A DNA stretch of 64,000 bases from Shimia isoporae (GTDB taxonomy: Bacteria; Pseudomonadota; Alphaproteobacteria; Rhodobacterales; Rhodobacteraceae), in assembly GCF_004346865.1 (NCBI RefSeq), contig NZ_SMGR01000001.1, positions 1,426,001-1,490,000 of the forward strand. The letters run 5' to 3'. The position numbers and the translations under genes are program-made. This document shows, piece after piece, positions 39,518 to 56,040 of the stretch (its first letter is position 1; the number at the start of each line of letters is the position of its first letter). The notes under the pieces were generated by a model. That model had not been told where the DNA came from and did not search any database. It saw nothing but the letters and a program-made list of their open reading frames with translations.

Positions 39518-39594
<77 letters not shown>

Positions 39595-39648
39595 TTTTCC
39601 TTTGACTTGAGACGGTTAGTTGGTTTTCTGGGCGCATGAGGGCCCGGC

Positions 39649-40992
39649 ATGACATTGTCTGACGTTAAATTTGTTGCTGCAGGACTGGACGCAGTTGACC
39701 GCCAGAGATTTGAGGCTGTCTGTGAAACAGCCGGGCTGAGAGTTCCGTCAAAGTGGCAACTCGGAAGAATGCAAACCGGTATCGGACTGCGGACCGGTCC
39801 GAACGTTCTTGAGCAGTTCGACGCCTGTTCTTTTCCAAGGGCAATCAAAGGCTTGAACGCGGTCCTCAGGGCATCAAACGGGGCTGTTTTTGTTAGCAAG
39901 GAAAAAAGACTTCCAAATTGGAAGGATCGTTTCGGTTCAGAACAATTCATCATCTCGCTGGATGATTTTGAAAAGAAACAGCCTTCAAAAACCACTACAC
40001 AAGCCGGTTTGGCTCTGGAGGGTCCATTCGCCTTTGTTATCCCAGTCGTGCACCCAAGTGGTAAAAAATTAATCGATTACAATGCCGTAGAGCGCATACT
40101 TCAACAAACTGTCCGGTCATGTCTATTGCAGTCGGAAACCAATGTTGCTGTCGTAGTTGTGTGTCACCGTGTGCCGGACTGGGCCGACAATCTTGATCTG
40201 CGTGTCCATTTTCTGGTGCTTGGTGATGACCGAGAATGGACAGCTTCGCCACTCGATGTACGGGAGGACAAGGGCGCAAAACATGTGCTTGGCGCCCAAT
40301 TTGCGCTGTCGCAATTGAACGCTTCTTCCGTGATGTTTCTGGATGGAGATGATTTTGTCCGGTCGGACCTTGTTAGCACAGTAGGAAACCGCCTTGGTTC
40401 CGTAAATGACGGGGTCGTGATTTCCAGCGGTCTACACGCGGCGTTGAAACGGACGGATAAGGGGTTTTCTCTGGACGCAGCGATCCGTGTTTTCGGATTT
40501 CACAACACTTGCGGGAGCTGCCGCGTGTTTCGCGGCGCAGTCTTGGCTGACCGGATGCGCCGCTGGATGTCCGACATTTTCGAGCTGACGTTTTTTGAAC
40601 AGGCCGAAGCCTTTGGCTCTTTTTCGAACCGCGCCGCCGATATGCGGGCCTTCTTCGATCAGATCGAGCGTACCGGTAACAATGAGTTTGGCCTAATTCG
40701 CTGCCTTGGTCGGCACGCCGCGCGATCGATGATCGCTGAATTGGACAACCTTTCGGAACCACTGGTTGCAAAGGGTTGTGGGCACGGAAATCATGACGGA
40801 CCAAGAAAGGGCGAGGTGCATTGGAACAAGTGTATCGGACAAATGGACAGCACTGAGTTCGCTAAAAGCTTTTCCATCGACCCAGAGATCATAACCACGA
40901 ATTCTCCTGATGTTGGTTTGGTGCGGCGATCTCAGATCTTGGCACCGTTCAATCGCGCTAAGCGTTTGTTTTTCATCGGCGACGACGTGTAG
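39649..40992 (+). CDS. Glycosyltransferase-like protein (GT-A-type core)
   Basis: A 447-residue soluble protein. The middle region starts with a strand FAFVIPVVHP near 128, then LLQSETNVAVVVVCHRVPDW near 158, and SSVMFLDGDDFVRSDLV near 225, the order of a nucleotide-sugar-binding GT-A fold with a DxD-like DGDD metal motif. The first 120 residues and the last 150 are unlike anything I recognise. It has no membrane segment. It probably transfers a sugar to a surface molecule; the family is not named with certainty. It lies between tRNA-Arg and the ABC membrane protein, 51 bases upstream of the latter. Confidence 0.55.
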   Translation: MTLSDVKFVAAGLDAVDRQRFEAVCETAGLRVPSKWQLGRMQTGIGLRTGPNVLEQFDACSFPRAIKGLNAVLRASNGAVFVSKEKRLPNWKDRFGSEQFIISLDDFEKKQPSKTTTQAGLALEGPFAFVIPVVHPSGKKLIDYNAVERILQQTVRSCLLQSETNVAVVVVCHRVPDWADNLDLRVHFLVLGDDREWTASPLDVREDKGAKHVLGAQFALSQLNASSVMFLDGDDFVRSDLVSTVGNRLGSVNDGVVISSGLHAALKRTDKGFSLDAAIRVFGFHNTCGSCRVFRGAVLADRMRRWMSDIFELTFFEQAEAFGSFSNRAADMRAFFDQIERTGNNEFGLIRCLGRHAARSMIAELDNLSEPLVAKGCGHGNHDGPRKGEVHWNKCIGQMDSTEFAKSFSIDPEIITTNSPDVGLVRRSQILAPFNRAKRLFFIGDDV

Positions 40993-41043
40993 GGTCGGGG
41001 AAGAAGCCATTAGCTTTGGTATAGTTTCGGGGTCAGAACGCAA

Positions 41044-41985
41044 ATGTGGAAATTTTACGCACGGATTTGGCGCAACACCGGCAAGGCTCAGATCGTTCTG
41101 ATAATTCTGTCGCTCATTGTGGCGGCGCTGGCAGCAGCGCCATTGCAGTTTCAAAAGGACATCATCAACAGCCTCGGACCGGATCTAGAAGTCAATGTGC
41201 TGGTCGGGCTGTGTGCCGGTTATCTGGGCGTGATCGTCGTCACCAATATTTTCAAGTTCGCGCTAAACTACCGGAGTTCATTGCTGGGCGAAGATACGAT
41301 CCGTCGCATTCGCGCGAGTGTCTATGGTGCACATCACAATCCGGACGCTTCGCGCAAGCCAAATGCAGGAACGCTTGCAACGATCATCTCTGCTGAAGCT
41401 GAAGAAGTCGGGCGATTTGTAGGACAAGCAGTTGCGAACCCTTTGTTGCAAGTCGGCACTTTGGTTTCGGTTGTGGGGTATGTTGCGTCCACCCAGCCAT
41501 ATCTGGGGGCGTTTATGGTTTTTATGATCGTACCGCAGGCCGCCATCGTCCTTTTCTTGCAGGAGAAAGTGAACAAACGGGTTCGGGACCGCACCATTGT
41601 TCTTCGCCACGCGTCTTCCGAAATCAGCGACGAAGAGATGAAGGACATCTCTCAGGTTCAGGACGTAATTGTCGATGACTTCGACAAGATTTACACGATC
41701 AGGCGCGGTATCTTTAAACTGAAGTTGTCCATGAAGATGGCAATGAATGTGATCAGTGGCGTGGGTCTCGTGGGTATTCTGCTAATCGGCGGTTTGTTGA
41801 TGAAGCAGAACATGACGGATGTGGGGACGGTGGTCGCTTCTATTTCGGCTCTTGAACGGATCAATTCGCCTTGGCGCTTGTTGTTGAACTTCTACAAGGA
41901 ACTCAGCGCCGCGCGGGTGAAATTCGAACTCATCGTGAAATCGAGCGATGCGTTTGACCCGGTTGAAACAAAAAAGGCGTCCTGA
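41044..41985 (+). CDS. ABC exporter transmembrane domain without ATPase domain
   Basis: A 313-residue inner-membrane protein with the six-helix ABC exporter (type I) transmembrane fold: helix 1 IVLIILSLIVAALAAAPLQ, then a long second helix, GTLATIISAEAEEVGRFVG as the typical cytosolic coupling region, and helices near 140, 165, 245 and 270. The chain ends after the last helix (ELSAARVKFELIVKSSDAF), just where an ATPase domain would begin. A strong terminator follows, so the ATPase is missing, not lost by a nearby frameshift. Either it pairs with a separate ATPase or it is a relic with a new role. Confidence 0.75.
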   Translation: MWKFYARIWRNTGKAQIVLIILSLIVAALAAAPLQFQKDIINSLGPDLEVNVLVGLCAGYLGVIVVTNIFKFALNYRSSLLGEDTIRRIRASVYGAHHNPDASRKPNAGTLATIISAEAEEVGRFVGQAVANPLLQVGTLVSVVGYVASTQPYLGAFMVFMIVPQAAIVLFLQEKVNKRVRDRTIVLRHASSEISDEEMKDISQVQDVIVDDFDKIYTIRRGIFKLKLSMKMAMNVISGVGLVGILLIGGLLMKQNMTDVGTVVASISALERINSPWRLLLNFYKELSAARVKFELIVKSSDAFDPVETKKAS

Positions 41986-41995
41986 GGACGCCTTT
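41973..41995 (+). terminator. Terminator of the ABC membrane protein gene
   Basis: AAAGGCGTCC - TGA - GGACGCCTTT is a perfect 10-bp stem containing the stop codon region. It also faces the convergent DUF882 gene and could serve both. Confidence 0.85.
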
Positions 41996-42018: not shown

Positions 42019-42588
42019 TTAGCGGCCCCAGGTGCGTACCGGTCCGCAATCCATATGGACGAAGTTCGAACCGGAGTATCGACCAACACCGCCCGCGCGA
42101 CATGCAGCAGCGGCTTTGGCGATCTGGTGAACTGAGCGAGACGAAATACGAAGGTCAGCGGCCTGACCTTTCATGTGAAGGGAGTTCTTGGCAACACCGC
42201 GTGACCGAGAGCGCAGCATCGCGTTGGTGGCCGGGCTGCGATAGCCGGACAAAAGCATGTAGGGCTCGTTCACATCCAGAAGGTTGTGTGCCGCTGCCAT
42301 AATGTCGATTGTCCGCGTATCAATGCCTATTACATCGTTCGTGCGCCAATCGCGCATGAATGCATTGATTTCCTTGACGGCGTCTTTGATGTATTTGCCT
42401 TCGACCCAATAAATGGTGTCGATCTTTTCGCCGGTACGGCCGGAGTACATGCGGATTCGACGAATATCGCCGCCGCCACGCAAGAAACCTGCCGCTTTGG
42501 AGAAGGTAGGAGCAGCGGTGAGTGCCGTCGCTGCAAAGGCGCCCAAGAGCGCACGTCTGGAAATGCTCGAAGAGCTATGTTCAGTCAT
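42019..42588 (-). CDS. DUF882 (YcbK-type) peptidase-like protein, exported
   Basis: A 189-residue exported protein from the M15-like DUF882/YcbK family, related to murein amidases/endopeptidases. The N-terminus SISRRALLGAFAATALTAAPTFSKA is a signal with a twin-arginine pair, suggesting Tat export. LLSGYRSPATNAMLR near 120, SLHMKGQAADLR near 145 with the zinc-ligand His/Asp, and NFVHMDCGPVRTWG at the end (second His) form the active-site pattern. I chose ATG 42588 because the further upstream frame is not protein-like. It is divergent from the L,D-transpeptidase gene. Confidence 0.88.
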   Translation of the reverse strand: MTEHSSSSISRRALLGAFAATALTAAPTFSKAAGFLRGGGDIRRIRMYSGRTGEKIDTIYWVEGKYIKDAVKEINAFMRDWRTNDVIGIDTRTIDIMAAAHNLLDVNEPYMLLSGYRSPATNAMLRSRSRGVAKNSLHMKGQAADLRISSRSVHQIAKAAAACRAGGVGRYSGSNFVHMDCGPVRTWGR

Positions 42589-42969
42589 TGTTTCAGCGCC
42601 TGTCCCGTCGCTAACCTGCCATCGCGATGTTACGCGATTGTTTAACCATCCCCTCAGATGTGGGGAATTTATTGCATACATGGATTCATGCTCCAAGAAC
42701 TCATTTCGAGCTTGACTCCCATATTGGCTGAAACAGGCGAAAAATTGCTTAACACGTGGAAAAATGTGCCGTGAGTTCTCACCAGACTGTAAATGTTCCC
42801 GCTGCGTTCTCCTTTCAGCTTGGAGCAGGCACTGGAATGCAACACAGCCGCAACACAATATATTGAGGTTTGAGGTTTCGAGAACTTGTGATTAGACAGC
42901 GAAAACGCAGTATCCAATGGTGGAAAAAACACTTCGCTATTCTGCGAATAAAACGACTGAGGGTTAGTT
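42589..42969. other. Divergent intergenic region between two peptidoglycan genes
   Basis: This stretch of about 380 bases has no credible gene. It is AT-richer than its neighbours and contains a TTAACCAT CtrA-type half-site at 42640-42647, but no complete CtrA box. It must hold the promoters of the DUF882 gene (minus) and the L,D-transpeptidase (plus). I see no RNA gene in it. Confidence 0.6.
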
Positions 42970-49903: not shown

Positions 49904-51208
49904 TTATTTTTCGGGGATCAGGCCTCTCGGGCTGAACCTGAGAACCAGCAGCAAGATCACTCCCATCGTCAGGAGGCGCATATGCGCCGCGCTATCTATC
50001 AGATGTTTCTTGAGAGCGCTGCCTTCCGCCATTCCTGCGGTGATCACTTGCATCAGCCAAAGTCCCATCGGTTCGACTTGAACCCAAAGGAACCAGATCA
50101 GGAATCCGCCAAGAACAGCGCCAAGGTTGTTGCCAGACCCGCCAACAATCACCATCACCCAGATCAGGAAAGTATAGCGCAGCGGCTGATAAGTGCCGGG
50201 CGTAAGTTGTCCGTCCAAGGTGGTCATCATCGCTCCGCCGATACCGCAGACCGCAGAACCCAGAACGAATATCTGAAGGTGCCGGTTGGTCACGTCTTTG
50301 CCCATTGCTTCAGCTGCCACTTCGTTGTCACGGATCGCACGCATCATGCGTCCCCAAGGGCTTTTGAGCGCGAGTTGCGCCATGACAAAGATGAGGATCA
50401 GGACGATAGCAAAAAGCACCGAGTAATTGAGCTTCACAAAGATCGACGAAGCCGTCGCCGGATCCATGCCAAGCCCTTCGGCTCGGTTTACAAACGCGGA
50501 TGAATTCTGCAGGTCAATTTCGTAGGGAACCGGACGATCCAAACCTACAACGTTCTTCACGCCGCGTGCCAACCAGTCTTCGTTCTTCATCACTGCGATG
50601 ATGATTTCCGCAATGCCGAGCGTGGCAATCGCCAGATAGTCAGAGCGCAATCCCAGTGCTGTCTTGCCAATCAGCCAGGCAACGCCTGCGGCCAGCAAAC
50701 CACCCATAGGCCAGGCCAGCAGGACAGGCAGGTTCAAACCACCAAGGTTACCTTGAAGCGCGGGATTGATGGCTTCGACGGCTTCCACACCGGGATCAAA
50801 GATGCCGCGGTACAGGAAAAAGCCGCCGACCAATATTGCCAGGGTCGAGACATTGCGTGCGCGTCCTTCAGCCATACGTTGGCGCACCATGACGGTGGCA
50901 ATGATGGTGCCGGCGCCAGCCAGCAATGCAATCACAATCCGCCATCCGCCTGCGCTCCAGGCGCCCGGCACGGGGGCCGCAGAGGTCAGCACAACTGCCA
51001 GACCACCAAGTGCAACAAAGCCCATGACACCGACGTTAAACAGACCGGCAAACCCCCATTGCAGGTTCACCCCCAAGGCCATAATGGCCGAAATCAGTCC
51101 CATGTTGAGAATGAGAAGCGCCACGTTCCAGCTTTGCATAATTCCGGTCAACGCGATCAGCGCAAAGACCAATACGAAAAGAGCGGTGTTTTTTAGGTTT
51201 TCGCTCAT
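49904..51208 (-). CDS. livM: Branched-chain amino-acid ABC transporter permease LivM
   Basis: An inner-membrane permease of the LivHM pair, 434 residues, longer than typical LivM (about 330-420). It has about ten hydrophobic helices, the coupling-loop motif GLRSDYLAIATLGIAEI near 207, and a conserved AIRDNEVAAEAMGKDV near 305. With LivH it forms the channel for leucine, isoleucine, valine or other amino acids. It overlaps livH by four bases and ends the operon at a strong terminator. Confidence 0.95.
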   Translation of the reverse strand: MSENLKNTALFVLVFALIALTGIMQSWNVALLILNMGLISAIMALGVNLQWGFAGLFNVGVMGFVALGGLAVVLTSAAPVPGAWSAGGWRIVIALLAGAGTIIATVMVRQRMAEGRARNVSTLAILVGGFFLYRGIFDPGVEAVEAINPALQGNLGGLNLPVLLAWPMGGLLAAGVAWLIGKTALGLRSDYLAIATLGIAEIIIAVMKNEDWLARGVKNVVGLDRPVPYEIDLQNSSAFVNRAEGLGMDPATASSIFVKLNYSVLFAIVLILIFVMAQLALKSPWGRMMRAIRDNEVAAEAMGKDVTNRHLQIFVLGSAVCGIGGAMMTTLDGQLTPGTYQPLRYTFLIWVMVIVGGSGNNLGAVLGGFLIWFLWVQVEPMGLWLMQVITAGMAEGSALKKHLIDSAAHMRLLTMGVILLLVLRFSPRGLIPEK

Positions 51209-52215
51209 ACCGATTTCCCCTTGAACAGGCCGGTCGGCTTGAACAGCAGAACCACGATCAGGATCACGAAGCTGACGGCAAATTTGTAGTCTGTGCTGAG
51301 CAATTGGACCAATCCTGAAGGCTCAAGGCTTTCCGGCATCAGGTATTTCAGCACTTTCTTCCAAGCATAAGTGATGGTGACTTCCGAGAAGGCAATCACA
51401 AAGCCACCCGCAATGGCGCCCAGCGGGCTGCCAAGACCACCGACGATTGCAGAGGCAAAGATCGGCAGCAGAAGCTGGAAGTAAACAAAGGGTTTGAAGG
51501 ATTTATCGAGACCGTACAGCACACCGGCGGTTGTCGCCAATGCGGCCACGATCAGCCACGTGTACATCACAACGCGTTCGGGGTTGATGCCCGACAAGAG
51601 CGCCAGATCTTCGTTGTCCGAGTAGGCGCGCATGGATTTGCCGGTGCGCGTGCGGTTCAGGAACCAGAAGAGCAGGGCGACCGCAATGATCGCCACGACA
51701 ACGGTGATCCCTTGCGTGGTTTTGATTGCCAGACCTTCCTTGAGGCCCGTCAGCGCCTTGAACTCCCGAACAGAAATGATGAAACGCTCACCGTCGGCGA
51801 ACTTTTGATCGTTCGGCCCAATGATGAAACGCACCAGACCGTTCATGATGAACATCACGCCCATCGACACGATCACAAGGATCACCGGTTTGGCTTTTTG
51901 TTCGCGATAGAAGCGATAGACCACACGGTCGGTGAACAGCAAAAGCGCCATCGTGCCAAGAATGGCAAAGGGCAGGGCGAGCAGGGCCGTTGGCAGAACG
52001 CCAAAGCTCACGCCCATCGATTGGAACCACCATGTGATGAGCACCGCGAGCATCGCGCCAAAGGCCATGGTGTCGCCATGGGCAAAGTTGGAGAACCGCA
52101 GAATGCCGTAGATTAGCGTAACCCCCAGCGCGCCAAGCGCCAGCTGGCTACCATAGGCAATCGCAGGGATGATGACAAAGTTAGAAAGCGCCACGAGGGC
52201 GTTGAGGAAGTCCAT
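51205..52215 (-). CDS. livH: Branched-chain amino-acid ABC transporter permease LivH
   Basis: The second permease, 336 residues from ATG 52215 (GAGGTG upstream). The longer frame to 52233 adds six residues. Its hydrophobic helices, GVTLIYGILRFSNFAHGDTMAFGA near the N-terminus and GLGSPLGAIAGGFVIAFSEV near 250, are typical LivH motifs. It shares the TAATG overlap with the stop of the small exported protein upstream. Confidence 0.95.
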   Translation of the reverse strand: MDFLNALVALSNFVIIPAIAYGSQLALGALGVTLIYGILRFSNFAHGDTMAFGAMLAVLITWWFQSMGVSFGVLPTALLALPFAILGTMALLLFTDRVVYRFYREQKAKPVILVIVSMGVMFIMNGLVRFIIGPNDQKFADGERFIISVREFKALTGLKEGLAIKTTQGITVVVAIIAVALLFWFLNRTRTGKSMRAYSDNEDLALLSGINPERVVMYTWLIVAALATTAGVLYGLDKSFKPFVYFQLLLPIFASAIVGGLGSPLGAIAGGFVIAFSEVTITYAWKKVLKYLMPESLEPSGLVQLLSTDYKFAVSFVILIVVLLFKPTGLFKGKSV

Positions 52216-52580
52216 TAATTCAACACCTCGCATTTGCCAGTCATGAATTCGAAGTCATTTCCGGCTGAGGAAACATAGGCACCGCGACCCGAAGGTTGGG
52301 CGGTGATATACGTGTCGGTGACGGTCCCGGCGAAACGCAACTCTTCGCTGCCTTTCAACTGCTGAAAACACTCCATACCGTCGCTGCCATCAAAGCTTGC
52401 GACCAGAGGGCAGTCGTCACCCGCGCTTTCGTCCCACACCCGCAGCGTTTGCGTATCGCTGGTGACTTTGGACGCCATTTGGCATGTGAGCAAATAGTCC
52501 GTGGCGCCCGCAGTTGAGCATGAGGACATAAGCGCAGCAGCGGCAGCTGGGAGAGCTATGTTCTGAAAATGTGTTTGCAT
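52215..52580 (-). CDS. Small exported protein inside the liv operon
   Basis: A 121-residue protein with a signal peptide (IALPAAAAALMSSCSTAGA). The MSSC could be an atypical lipobox, but the last position before cysteine fits and the third does not. The mature part has four cysteines (LLTCQM, DDCPL, MECFQ, GKCEV), enough for two disulfides, and no known domain. The start may be GTG 52583 or ATG 52580, directly after the livF stop. It lies between livF and livH with a one-base overlap with livH, so it is co-translated with the transporter. A periplasmic helper role is possible but unproven. Confidence 0.7.
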   Translation of the reverse strand: MQTHFQNIALPAAAAALMSSCSTAGATDYLLTCQMASKVTSDTQTLRVWDESAGDDCPLVASFDGSDGMECFQQLKGSEELRFAGTVTDTYITAQPSGRGAYVSSAGNDFEFMTGKCEVLN

Positions 52581-52583
52581 CAC

Positions 52584-53411
52584 TCAGCCCCCCAGGAACG
52601 ACTTGCGGACTTCTTCGTCCGCGAGAAGGTCTTTGCCGGTGCCGGTGTAGGCATTGCGCCCCTGAACCAGCACATAGCCTTTGTCGGCAATTTCAAGCGC
52701 CTGACGCGCGTTTTGCTCGACCATCAGGATCGGAATGCCGGTGCGGCTGACCTCAATGATCCGGTCAAACAGCTCGTCCATCACGATGGGCGACACACCT
52801 GCGGTTGGCTCATCCAGCATCAGAACTTTGGGTTGCGTCATCAGCGCGCGGCCCACGGCCACCTGCTGACGCTGTCCACCGGAGAGTTCGCCCGCCGGCT
52901 GATTGCGTTTCTCTTTCAGGATGGGAAAGAGGCCATATACCTGCTCCATCGTGTCCGAGAAATCATCGGTGCGGATAAACGCGCCCATCTCGAGGTTCTC
53001 TTCCACCGTCATCGAGGTGAAGATGTTGTTGGTCTGCGGCACAAAACCCATGCCTTTGGCCACACGTGCCTGCGGGGTCAGACCGGTGATGTCCTCACCA
53101 TCCAGCCGCACAGAACCCTGACGAAGGTTCAACATGCCGAAGACCGCTTTCATGCCGGTGGATTTTCCGGCCCCGTTGGGGCCAACAATCACCGCAATCT
53201 CACCCGGGTTCACGGCAATCGTGCAGTCATGCAGGATATCAGGGCCGTCCTTGCCATAGCCGCCGGTCATGCTGTCGCCGACCAGAAAGGCATCCGTCGT
53301 GTTCATTTCCTTGCCAGTCCCAACGGCGGGCGTCATTTCGCCTCCGCCTTTGGGATTGGTGATCGATGCATCTTTGTTGCCACGATCGTCCTGATAGGGA
53401 TTGTCGCTCAT
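52584..53411 (-). CDS. livF: Branched-chain amino-acid ABC transporter ATPase LivF, N-terminally extended
   Basis: The second ATPase of the LivGF pair, 275 residues against the usual about 235. Walker A GPNGAGKST is near 74-82, the signature LSGGQRQQVAVGRAL near 174, and Walker B VLMLDEPTAGVSP near 196. The first about 45 residues (MSDNPYQDDRGNK, then KGGGEMTPAVG) are polar and unordered in look, an extension not part of the ABC core. The start ATG 53411 is preceded by a GGGGGG ribosome-binding site. The frame upstream of it is not used. Confidence 0.95.
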   Translation of the reverse strand: MSDNPYQDDRGNKDASITNPKGGGEMTPAVGTGKEMNTTDAFLVGDSMTGGYGKDGPDILHDCTIAVNPGEIAVIVGPNGAGKSTGMKAVFGMLNLRQGSVRLDGEDITGLTPQARVAKGMGFVPQTNNIFTSMTVEENLEMGAFIRTDDFSDTMEQVYGLFPILKEKRNQPAGELSGGQRQQVAVGRALMTQPKVLMLDEPTAGVSPIVMDELFDRIIEVSRTGIPILMVEQNARQALEIADKGYVLVQGRNAYTGTGKDLLADEEVRKSFLGG

Positions 53412-53454
53412 GGCGTCCCCCCTTTTTGTTTTTGTTGTTTCATTTCGTCCCCCT

Positions 53455-53826
53455 CTACGAAGGCACGCATTCTCCGACAAACTGGCGCGGGGCCAGGTCT
53501 CGTCCGGAAACGGCATTTTCGCTGTGAACGGCTTCGCCGCTGTCGAGCATGATGGTCGTCGTCGTTGTGCCGCCTGAAATGGGCCGCTCAAGTATTGTGA
53601 CCGCGCGATCGCCCAGAACCAGTTCGAAAACACTCAGAGGGTTGCCCCCGATACGTTCAACGACATTGGTTTCCGTTTCGACACGAAAGCGCACATCCTC
53701 GCCAGCGTGGTCGCACTTGGTGTTTGGATCACATCCCCAATCGAACCAGCACCGGTAAATGAACTGATCCGCATGAACAGGGGCGGCCATCAAACCAAGC
53801 AACGATGCCACAGCGAGCCGCGTCAT
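53455..53826 (-). CDS. Small exported protein between livG and livF
   Basis: A 123-residue protein with a clear signal peptide (MTRLAVASLLGLMAAPVHA, cleavage near 19). The mature chain has five cysteines (YRCWFDWGCDPNTKCDHAGED, then GECVPS), with a Trp/Cys-rich start and then beta-rich sequence. I recognise no domain. It overlaps livG by four bases and precedes livF by 43 bases, so it is made with the transporter and placed in the periplasm. Together with the second small exported protein it makes an unusual liv operon. Confidence 0.7.
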   Translation of the reverse strand: MTRLAVASLLGLMAAPVHADQFIYRCWFDWGCDPNTKCDHAGEDVRFRVETETNVVERIGGNPLSVFELVLGDRAVTILERPISGGTTTTTIMLDSGEAVHSENAVSGRDLAPRQFVGECVPS

Positions 53827-54605
53827 GCGCCCACCATCTCCTTGTTTTTCAAACCGGTACCGAGGTAGGCCTCAATTACCTGTTCGTTGGCTTTGATTTC
53901 GTCCAGCGTGCCTTCAGCAAGCACTTTGCCTTCCGCCATACAGATCACCGGATCACACAGGCGACCGATGAAATCCATGTCATGTTCGATCACAACGAAC
54001 GTGTAACCGCGTTCCTTGTTCAAGCGCTGAATTGCGTCGCCGATAGTGTTAAGCAGTGTGCGGTTCACGCCAGCGCCCACTTCGTCGAGGAATACGATTT
54101 TGGCATCAACCATCATCGTGCGCCCCAGTTCGAGAAGCTTCTTCTGACCGCCAGAAACCTGTCCGGCCTTGTGATCCGCCAGATGTTCAATCGTCAGAAA
54201 CTCAAGAACTTCGTCAGCCTTGGCACGAAGAGCGCGTTCCTCGTTCGCAATGCGTTTGCGACCGAACCACGTATTCCAAAGCGTTTCGCCGGATTGCCCG
54301 CCAGGCACCATCATAAGGTTTTCCCGACAACTCATGGAGCTGAATTCGTGAGCTATCTGGAACGTGCGTAACAGACCCTTATGAAACAACTCATGTGGTG
54401 GAAGACCGGTGATGTCTTCTCCCGCCATGGTTACACGACCGGACGTTGGTTGAAGAACCCCGGCGATCACGTTGAAAAGAGTGGTTTTTCCGGCTCCGTT
54501 TGGCCCTATCAGGCCGGTGATTGATCCCGGTTCGATTTTCAGGCTTGCACCGTCAACAGCACGAAAGCCTCCAAAATGTTTGTGAACGTCTTCTACGACG
54601 ATCAT
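53823..54605 (-). CDS. livG: Branched-chain amino-acid ABC transporter ATPase LivG
   Basis: The first ATPase, 260 residues, of normal size. Walker A GPNGAGKTTLFNVIAG is near 34, the signature VSGGQKKLLELGRTM near 150, and Walker B KIVFLDEVGAGVN near 170. The LivG-specific C-terminal ending (EVIEAYLGTGLKNKE) is present. Note the DEVGAG in place of the more common DEPAAG. It is separated from livK by a terminator-like hairpin, as in operons where the binding protein is made in excess. Confidence 0.95.
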   Translation of the reverse strand: MIVVEDVHKHFGGFRAVDGASLKIEPGSITGLIGPNGAGKTTLFNVIAGVLQPTSGRVTMAGEDITGLPPHELFHKGLLRTFQIAHEFSSMSCRENLMMVPGGQSGETLWNTWFGRKRIANEERALRAKADEVLEFLTIEHLADHKAGQVSGGQKKLLELGRTMMVDAKIVFLDEVGAGVNRTLLNTIGDAIQRLNKERGYTFVVIEHDMDFIGRLCDPVICMAEGKVLAEGTLDEIKANEQVIEAYLGTGLKNKEMVGA

Positions 54606-54648
54606 GTTACACCCCCTGCGCAGTTCATTGCTGCGCGTTATATATTGA

Positions 54649-54677
54649 AAAACAGCCCGGACAAGCCGGGCTGTTTT
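54649..54677 (-). terminator. Partial terminator between livK and livG
   Basis: AAAACAGCCCGG and CCGGGCTGTTTT pair over 12 bp around a 5-base loop. On the minus strand the stem is followed by T-rich sequence. It lies between livK and livG, so it can lower downstream expression relative to the binding protein. Confidence 0.85.
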
Positions 54678-54698
54678 CGATCTCAGTTCACGAAGCGA

Positions 54699-55886
54699 TT
54701 AGCGGTACTTAGCCGTGGTGATCTCACCGCCTTCGATAACGATCTGGCGGTAGTTACCCGCAGACTCACCCGCGCCAATCAGCTCAACCGCAGTCGCGCC
54801 AACGTAGTCGATGTCACCGCCACCTGCGAGGATCTCGAGAGCTTTGGCCAGTTCACCCGGGAAGATCTGTTCGCCGGGCGCGTTAGCGACATCCATGACT
54901 TTTTCCTTGTAGACTGCCGGATCGGATGATCCCGCTGCCTGCATTGCCAGCATGATCAGAGCAGCCGCGTCATAGCTTTCTGGTGTGAAGGGCGAGGTCG
55001 CGTCAAACGCGCCGCCAACCATTTCGGCGAATTTTGCTGCGCCAGGGCTGTCGGTGCCAGGGTGCTGACCGGTAGAACCTTCGATTTCATCACCGAAGTT
55101 TTCCTGAAGCTTCTCGCCAATCATGCCGTCCGGGAAGTGGAAGGTATCAAATGCACCGGAGTCGATTGCGGCACGAACGATGCCGGAACCACCTTGGTCC
55201 ACATAGCCTGCAACAACCAGACGCTCGCCACCGGCCGCCGCCAATGCACCAACTTCTGCAGAGTAGTCGGCTTTGCCGTCTTCGTGGGCAGCGTTGATTG
55301 TGACCGTGCCGCCAGCCGCTTCGAAGGCCGCCTGGAAGCTGTCTGCGAGACCTTTACCGTAGTCGTTGTTGGTGTAAGTCACCGCGACTTCTTTGATGCC
55401 TTCTTCCATCAGAACTTCCGTCATCACAACGCCCTGACGTGCGTCAGATGGAGCGGTGCGGAAGAACAGGCCGTTGTCTTCGTTGTTGTTGTGGCTCAGG
55501 CCAGGTGACGTCGCTGACGGGGAAATCATGACAACACCGTTTGCCAGAGCAACGTTGTTGAGGATCGCGCCGGTTACGCCGGAACAGTCAGCACCCATGA
55601 TACCTTTAACGCCATCTGCAGTGATCAAACGCTCTGCGGCGGCCGATGCCGCGGCTGCGTCGACGCAAGTGGAATCAGCGCGCACCGGCATCACGGAAGA
55701 GCCATCCAGAAGCTTGCCGCTGTCGGTGACTTCCTTCATTGCCAGTTCAGCACCGTCTGCCATGGAAGGCGTCAGGGATTCGATCGGACCGGTGAAGCCC
55801 AGAATGATGCCTAGTTTGATGTCTTCGGCCGATGCGGCACCTGCGAGCAGCGCGCCTGCAGCGGTCGCTAGAAGCAGTTTTTTCAT
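54699..55886 (-). CDS. livK: Branched-chain amino-acid ABC transporter substrate-binding protein
   Basis: A periplasmic binding protein of the Leu/Ile/Val family, 395 residues with the signal peptide MKKLLLATAAGALLAGAASA. Start ATG 55886 has GGGAG upstream. The start of the mature chain, EDIKLGIILGFTGPIESLTPSM, and the ligand region SPSATSPGLSHNN near 150 are typical of type I binding folds. It delivers amino acids (or a similar small compound) to LivHM. It is first in the operon livK-livG-small-livF-small-livH-livM. Confidence 0.93.
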   Translation of the reverse strand: MKKLLLATAAGALLAGAASAEDIKLGIILGFTGPIESLTPSMADGAELAMKEVTDSGKLLDGSSVMPVRADSTCVDAAAASAAAERLITADGVKGIMGADCSGVTGAILNNVALANGVVMISPSATSPGLSHNNNEDNGLFFRTAPSDARQGVVMTEVLMEEGIKEVAVTYTNNDYGKGLADSFQAAFEAAGGTVTINAAHEDGKADYSAEVGALAAAGGERLVVAGYVDQGGSGIVRAAIDSGAFDTFHFPDGMIGEKLQENFGDEIEGSTGQHPGTDSPGAAKFAEMVGGAFDATSPFTPESYDAAALIMLAMQAAGSSDPAVYKEKVMDVANAPGEQIFPGELAKALEILAGGGDIDYVGATAVELIGAGESAGNYRQIVIEGGEITTAKYR

Positions 55887-56040
55887 TGTTACACTCCCTA
55901 TTGGTATTTTTGTATGGCCGAGCCTATGCGGGGAGATTTCAAAAGAAAAGGGGCAAGTGCCCAAAACTTGATCACACAAAAACTGCGTTTGATGGTATGA
56001 ATTTTCCAAGGTGTACCGAAAAACTCAGGCTTTAAAAAAC

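Follow-up and report, generated by a model that had tools for sequence, protein, structure and literature searches.

The 313-aa protein examined here is a conserved protein rather than a recently broken pump. It has the membrane domain (TMD) of an ABC exporter and lacks the ATPase, which is the defining part of ABC transporters. The reading that we favour, with a probability of roughly 40%, is that it is an ATP-independent membrane protein of the ABC fold that works with a long pseudo-ATPase protein. Its gene lies in a window of 64,000 nucleotides (the whole stretch of DNA that was analysed) from an alphaproteobacterial host genome of 4.23 Mb, whose closest relatives with a name belong to Shimia.

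The membrane-domain protein and its surroundings

The gene and its immediate neighbours are as follows.

39518–39594, plus strand: tRNA-Arg (CCG), upstream of the glycosyltransferase-like gene.
39649–40992, plus strand: gene for a weakly glycosyltransferase-2-like protein of 447 aa, upstream of the TMD gene (label from a sub-threshold PF00535 match in the homologue at locus L041).
41044–41985, plus strand: gene for a TMD-only protein of the ABC-exporter fold, 313 aa, with six transmembrane (TM) helices and no ATPase domain (NBD) (PF00664 match, conserved short clade, AF2 model, and fold comparison with weak to middling scores).
41973–41995, no strand assigned: hairpin of 10 pairs within which the TMD gene stops (folding and terminator scan).
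42019–42858, minus strand: DUF882/peptidase M15 gene, convergent, on the far side of the hairpin (PF05951, E 3.9e-47; longest ORF, the true start probably lying further in).

The initial annotation described an ORF of 313 residues that ends near the sixth helix and that has lost the ATPase while retaining the fold, and both points are borne out. PF00664 (ABC_membrane) is the sole match of the protein above cut-off (E 6.8e-9, 36.2 bits versus a cut-off of 28), and the Pfam scan gives no match to an ATPase family. The mark used for a type IV exporter membrane domain, a PF00664 match at E ≤ 1, is found in 17 of 17 A1 members. The MsbA model aligns weakly, over model positions 2–308 of 572, and PHROGs returns an ABC transporter family at E 9e-13 together with one chance-level match. 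The closest solved sequences are TmrA, Sav1866, and TM288. In the AF2 model (mean pLDDT 71.6, pTM 0.66) the chain forms six long helices, the last of which ends at residue 300, and the predicted C-terminus lies 13 residues beyond it. The best 50 Foldseek matches listed for this model are all ABC proteins; among these 50 only two have E ≤ 0.001, and the TM-scores are low (0.24–0.43 on the query). The VIA fold-comparison list consists mainly of ABCC, SUR, and P-gp chains, with a best Z of 14.1, a value that can arise by chance for helical proteins.

A strong terminator had also been placed after the gene. A strong hairpin is indeed present and encloses the stop codon; folded together with its flanks it has an MFE of −20.1 kcal/mol (z −3.53), a value that none of 200 shuffles reached. 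The terminator scan, however, counts it as terminator-like for the minus strand alone, and the T-run is weak for the TMD gene. Elsewhere in the window, the region 49904–56009 resembles in sequence a Liv-type branched-chain amino acid importer with two permeases, two ATPases, and a binding protein.

A conserved short clade

Same-length homologues in relatives, which the initial annotation proposed to look for, were found. A GTDB contig scan gives 10 loci, 52–81% identical to the 313-aa protein and all short, and a profile search (>400 bits) places S1, the clade of this gene, in 27 of 394 genomes of the family. In a tree of 95 rows the 33 S1 rows, 10 of them from the contig-scan loci and 23 from the 27 genomes of the family, are monophyletic with support 99/98. 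The remaining four S1 genomes (G119, G239, G255, and G338) were checked separately, outside the tree, and their frames stop 6–15 residues past the profile match. No same-chain NBD occurs in the 33 tree rows or in these four further family genomes, and the frames end shortly after TM6. The sign of a recent truncation named earlier, an ATPase domain within the homologous gene of relatives, did not turn up in the orthologous clade, where all members are short.

The short clade is under purifying selection: dN/dS is 0.05–0.10 in the 8 of 15 S1 pairs with finite dS, the other seven being saturated, and dS is below 1 in one pair only. Conserved length, monophyly, and purifying selection together rule out a recent truncation. 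The idea that the protein is a decaying remnant of a transporter draws on its being shorter than normal half-transporters and on one class member, G588, whose short form is broken by in-frame stops. Set against the low dN/dS and the length kept across the clade, this idea is already largely refuted and retains next to no probability.

The short form extends beyond the family. In a survey of 337 genomes of the class it occurs in 21 genomes outside its own family, spread over 13 families, and a match in a frame of at least 850 aa, which defines the long form in the class (nine were verified individually), occurs in 105. The 21 genomes exclude G000, G055, and the weak or fragmentary G714, G599, G499, G531, G602, and G601, and include G588. 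In a phylum survey of 219 genomes, 14 matched, 13 of these being Alphaproteobacteria.

The relation of short to long forms was examined in a 58-row unrooted tree. It sampled 12 of the 33 S1 rows, 12 of 38 long rows, 15 of 17 S2 rows (L083 and L160 omitted), 10 of 11 class short loci (the broken L211 omitted), and nine class long rows; S2-type profile hits beyond those in the tree exist and were left unplaced. The own-genome canonical exporters were dropped as a root because their branches run to 3–10 changes per column in the 95-row tree. One branch (100/99) parts 31 short rows, namely 12 from S1, 10 from other families, and nine others, from all 21 long rows. The branches of L026 and L079 are long in this tree, and their positions are unsure. 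Domain matches and phylogeny thus show the short form, at the level of sequence, to be a member of an old, mostly alphaproteobacterial TMD-only branch of type IV ABC exporters.

Six further TMD-only rows fall on the long side, grouping among the long forms (98/98). These (L076, L077, L078, L079, L157, and L159) seem to have lost the ATPase part later and independently, the placement of L079 being unsure. Depending on where the root lies, their position suggests that ATPase-less membrane domains arose at least twice in this branch. Two other TMD-only genes, L155 and L160, have upstream frames that resemble the shadow of a common neighbouring gene. The open-access literature searched yielded no description of the short family or of the long pseudo-ABC/cNMP family.

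Docking loops and the question of an ATPase in trans

The short protein shares a six-helix PF00664 membrane domain with type IV ABC exporters such as MsbA, TmrAB, and TM287/288, but differs from them in having no NBD and in its docking loops. The two sites concerned are listed below.

41329–41361, plus strand: residues 96–106, part of intracellular loop 1, the expected site of coupling helix 1 (pLDDT below 50 at 96–106; variable).
41620–41673, plus strand: residues 193–210, part of intracellular loop 2 (coupling helix 2), shorter than in the long forms (pLDDT below 50 at 193–195, 197–199, and 201–210).

The alignment shows that the NBD-docking loops are not kept in the short proteins, whereas the membrane core is kept. 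Loop 2 is 69 residues long in 21 of 21 long rows versus 53–65 in 31 of 31 short rows, and the mean conservation of its coupling region is 0.25 in S1 and 0.22 in the class short rows versus 0.75 and 0.66 in the long rows of the family and the class. Loop 1 has 47 residues in all long rows versus 40–55 in short rows, and its mean conservation (residues 91–108) is 0.22 in both S1 and the class short rows versus 0.56 (family) and 0.50 (class) in the long rows. Helix conservation spans 0.58–0.81 in S1 and class short rows versus 0.56–0.75 in class long rows; since these spreads are similar, the loop difference does not merely reflect a greater diversity of the short rows. Loop 2 is also shorter (57–63) in the six TMD-only rows of the long side, and the confidence of the AF2 model is low at precisely both coupling-loop sites. 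The residues K71, R90, E118, N177, R188, K227, G249, G250, G261, and P276 are nearly invariant in short and long rows alike.

The loops bear on the earlier suggestion that a separate protein supplies the ATPase in trans, so that the TMD would be one part of an ordinary ABC transporter. Split TMD/NBD genes are included in the YddA family, according to PMC13316013. Standalone ABC-ATPase-like ORFs also exist, for example the Liv-type pair at 52584–54605 of the window (judged by sequence and neighbours). However, with the docking loops unconserved in the 31 short rows and loop 2 shortened, while both are kept in the 21 long rows, such an arrangement is improbable, and the short protein would not be awaiting an ordinary ATPase. 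The recurring MsbA-like ATPase genes near it are part of a block that is also found where the short gene is absent. A partner ATPase without a membrane domain had been named as a further check. No free-standing copy of the ATPase part of the long form stood out in the own genome, where the search gave, besides the long form and the TMD gene, 18 matches in open frames of 268–804 aa at 35 bits or less.

The long pseudo-ABC relatives

The next best matches to the short protein include proteins of about 980–1170 aa, and the long relatives overall span about 880–1170 aa. A long form has a membrane domain and a split ATPase domain, and is accompanied by a cyclic-nucleotide-binding domain, either fused at the C-terminus or encoded by the adjacent downstream gene. 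The host genome carries one such gene.

L073:5325–8399 (= G000:C6:117324–120398): own-genome long pseudo-ABC protein with a degenerate, insert-split NBD and a cNMP_binding domain.

These alphaproteobacterial proteins are the closest sequence relatives found and have conserved polar residues in common with the short protein; they differ in carrying the split, motif-poor ATPase domain and in keeping the docking loops. The AF2 model of L073 (pLDDT 79.4, pTM 0.65) matches ABC exporters structurally (best E 8.7e-14, TM 0.51 on a 572-aa target). The ATPase domain of four scanned family long forms falls below the PF00005 cut-off. When 40 family rows are aligned to L073, none has a Walker A GK[S/T], none has a Walker B D-E pair, and none has the H-loop histidine at the column that holds it in other families. 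Two long paralogues are present in many family genomes.

The long forms of other alphaproteobacterial families (880–969 aa in eight of nine, 1056 in one) are less decayed. PF00005 is above cut-off in three of three scanned, as it is in family row L071, and among the nine a canonical Walker A occurs in one (L225), the H-loop histidine in three, and a D-E Walker B in none. These partial motifs make an ‘ATP-free’ reading less secure for those long forms.

Each of the 49 long-form loci has the cyclic-nucleotide domain, 39 as a fusion and 10 as the next ORF. In the family the profile of the long form extends through the cyclic-nucleotide end in 38 of 40 rows, and in the other two (L071 and L161) the next ORF matches this end. 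In the other families a separate next ORF of 150–187 aa is found in eight of nine loci (cNMP_binding in three of three scanned), L227 being fused. The same loci, L221–L229, have glycosyltransferase genes close by in several cases, with the cNMP domain mostly as an ORF of its own after the long form. Among the neighbours of the 40 family loci, a CPBP/Rce1-like protease group occurs at 15 and a HAMP plus nucleotide cyclase group adjoins 10 (one member of each group scanned). In one case (L129:2826–4538) a HAMP plus adenylate/guanylate cyclase gene lies immediately upstream of the long form.

SUR1 and CFTR provide a precedent for an ABC fold that is used for something other than pumping, SUR1 serving potassium channels. 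Their likeness to the short protein lies in the fold; they differ in being eukaryotic and full-length, with NBDs. By analogy with SUR1, the short protein could be a non-transport regulatory or scaffold protein, and the cyclic-nucleotide domain and the cyclase neighbour of the long form would fit regulation. The structural matches listed include SUR and CFTR chains, which speaks for a shared fold only, but the SUR matches tie with transporter matches in Z, and we regard such a role as unlikely.

Co-occurrence of short and long forms

The long form is present in 27 of 27 S1 genomes and in 77 of 394 family genomes overall (Fisher 1e-21, phylogeny ignored); the 77 are the 79 listed less G160 and G261, for which TMD-only frames are the sole hits in the list. 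In the class outside the family it is present in 20 of 21 short-form genomes versus 82 of 311 genomes without the short form (Fisher 2e-10, ancestry ignored), with G569, which carries a fragment at a contig edge, counted as lacking it. Among the other short lineages of the family placed in the tree, six of nine genomes have the long form; G003, G004, and G054 do not. Short forms can therefore exist without the long form, and a strict dependence of one on the other is weakened by these three genomes. No conserved linkage of short and long genes was seen at the loci examined, which counts against the favoured reading. Taken together, the data show a co-occurrence that is strong but imperfect, and confounded by shared ancestry.

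Comparison with SbmA

The main rival to cooperation with the long form is that the short protein is a secondary transporter of the SbmA kind, that is, a homodimer that has lost both the ATPase and the coupling helices and in which the proton gradient moves the substrate. SbmA is a documented case of an exporter fold working without an ATPase. According to PMC13316013, SbmA-like transporters have no coupling helices, and their proposed origin is an ABC protein that lost its ATPase. The short protein resembles SbmA/BacA (PF05992) in being an ABC-exporter membrane fold with neither ATPase nor coupling helices. It differs in having no TM0 helices in the AF2 model and, apparently, fewer conserved glutamates that would be candidates for a glutamate ladder in the cavity: only E118 (31 of 31), E120 (27 of 31), and E83 (27 of 31) are conserved in at least 80% of the 31 short rows. 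None of the 17 short members matches PF05992, nor does any protein in the own genome, the E. coli control being positive, and this rules out membership by sequence. The 40 sequence hits in the PDB, taken to E 10, include no SbmA-named chain; SbmA is also absent among the 50 VIA matches listed, an absence that excludes nothing. The parallel is thus one of anatomy, and membership fails for want of a PF05992 match and of TM0.

A proton-driven mechanism may nonetheless be open to the short protein, in that a cytoplasmic gate that can be protonated might be built from the invariant E118, close to where TM3 begins, and from R90, where TM2 ends. The short forms found without a long form also fit such a transporter, but it leaves the co-occurrence with the long form unexplained. 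On balance we consider it possible, though doubtful.

Gene neighbourhood and the glycan link

The short gene lies in the ygfZ–efp interval in 18 of 27 family loci, sometimes with another gene between, and is placed elsewhere in nine, the window among these. In both Shimia-genus genomes examined (L180 and L181) the ygfZ–efp slot is without the short gene. These two, which have the short gene elsewhere, and 12 genomes with the long form only make up 14 ygfZ loci without the short gene; an MsbA-like gene is found in 12 of them, a GT2 gene in 12, and efp in eight. The names ygfZ, efp, sufS, GT2 block, and MsbA-like are labels from sequence, and of these only the GT2 gene (L144) was domain-scanned. 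As the block stands without the short gene, its MsbA-like exporter and GT2 gene, which lie next to the short gene in other genera, were rejected as partner ATPase and glycan link.

The initial annotation also took the upstream neighbour to resemble a GT-A glycosyltransferase and tentatively drew from it a link to surface glycans. The gene is present, but this label is a weak one: Pfam gives nothing at E ≤ 1 for the protein encoded in the window, and its L041 homologue matches PF00535 below threshold (E 0.0025, 18.2 bits versus 23.3). The gene sits between the tRNA-Arg and the TMD gene (39518–40992) as if the site gains genes. Handling of a glycan or glycolipid with this gene as partner would agree with the arrangement, the two genes being adjacent on the same strand with a gap of 51 bp. 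However, among 36 other S1 loci with flanks the GT-like gene recurs in one (L041, 46% identical, directly upstream of the TMD gene), and among 198 family genomes seven have a match to its product, the own genome and six weak ones. It is therefore ruled out as a conserved partner, the glycan link through the neighbour finds no support, and with the usual ygfZ–efp position of the short gene and the independence of the nearby block, this reading is highly improbable. Outside the family, six of nine long-form loci lie near one gene group, with group-1 glycosyltransferases in three of three loci scanned; a glycan role is thus conceivable for the wider short/long system.

A proposed role and its meaning

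Based on the co-occurrence and on the conserved polar residues shared by the two forms, the short protein would most likely be a six-helix half-unit that operates in one system with the long paralogue. It would probably be the membrane-domain partner of the long form, in the host the protein encoded at C6. Its membrane core may still move or hold a ligand, and a driver or gate different from ATP hydrolysis would bring about the conformational change.

A wider picture is more speculative. A branch of ABC exporters in the Alphaproteobacteria may have been rebuilt as an ATP-independent, cyclic-nucleotide-responsive machine, with the long protein as pseudo-ATPase and sensor subunit and the short protein as bare membrane subunit. 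If true, the ABC fold would here have freed itself from ATP independently for a second time, SbmA being the first, and a chemical signal would replace the fuel. The short proteins represent a second widespread and conserved ATPase-less lineage, with docking loops not kept, and they stand beside relatives at stages of ATPase decay. Natural intermediates of this kind, with their link to cyclic-nucleotide sensing, would allow tests of how a pump turns into something else.
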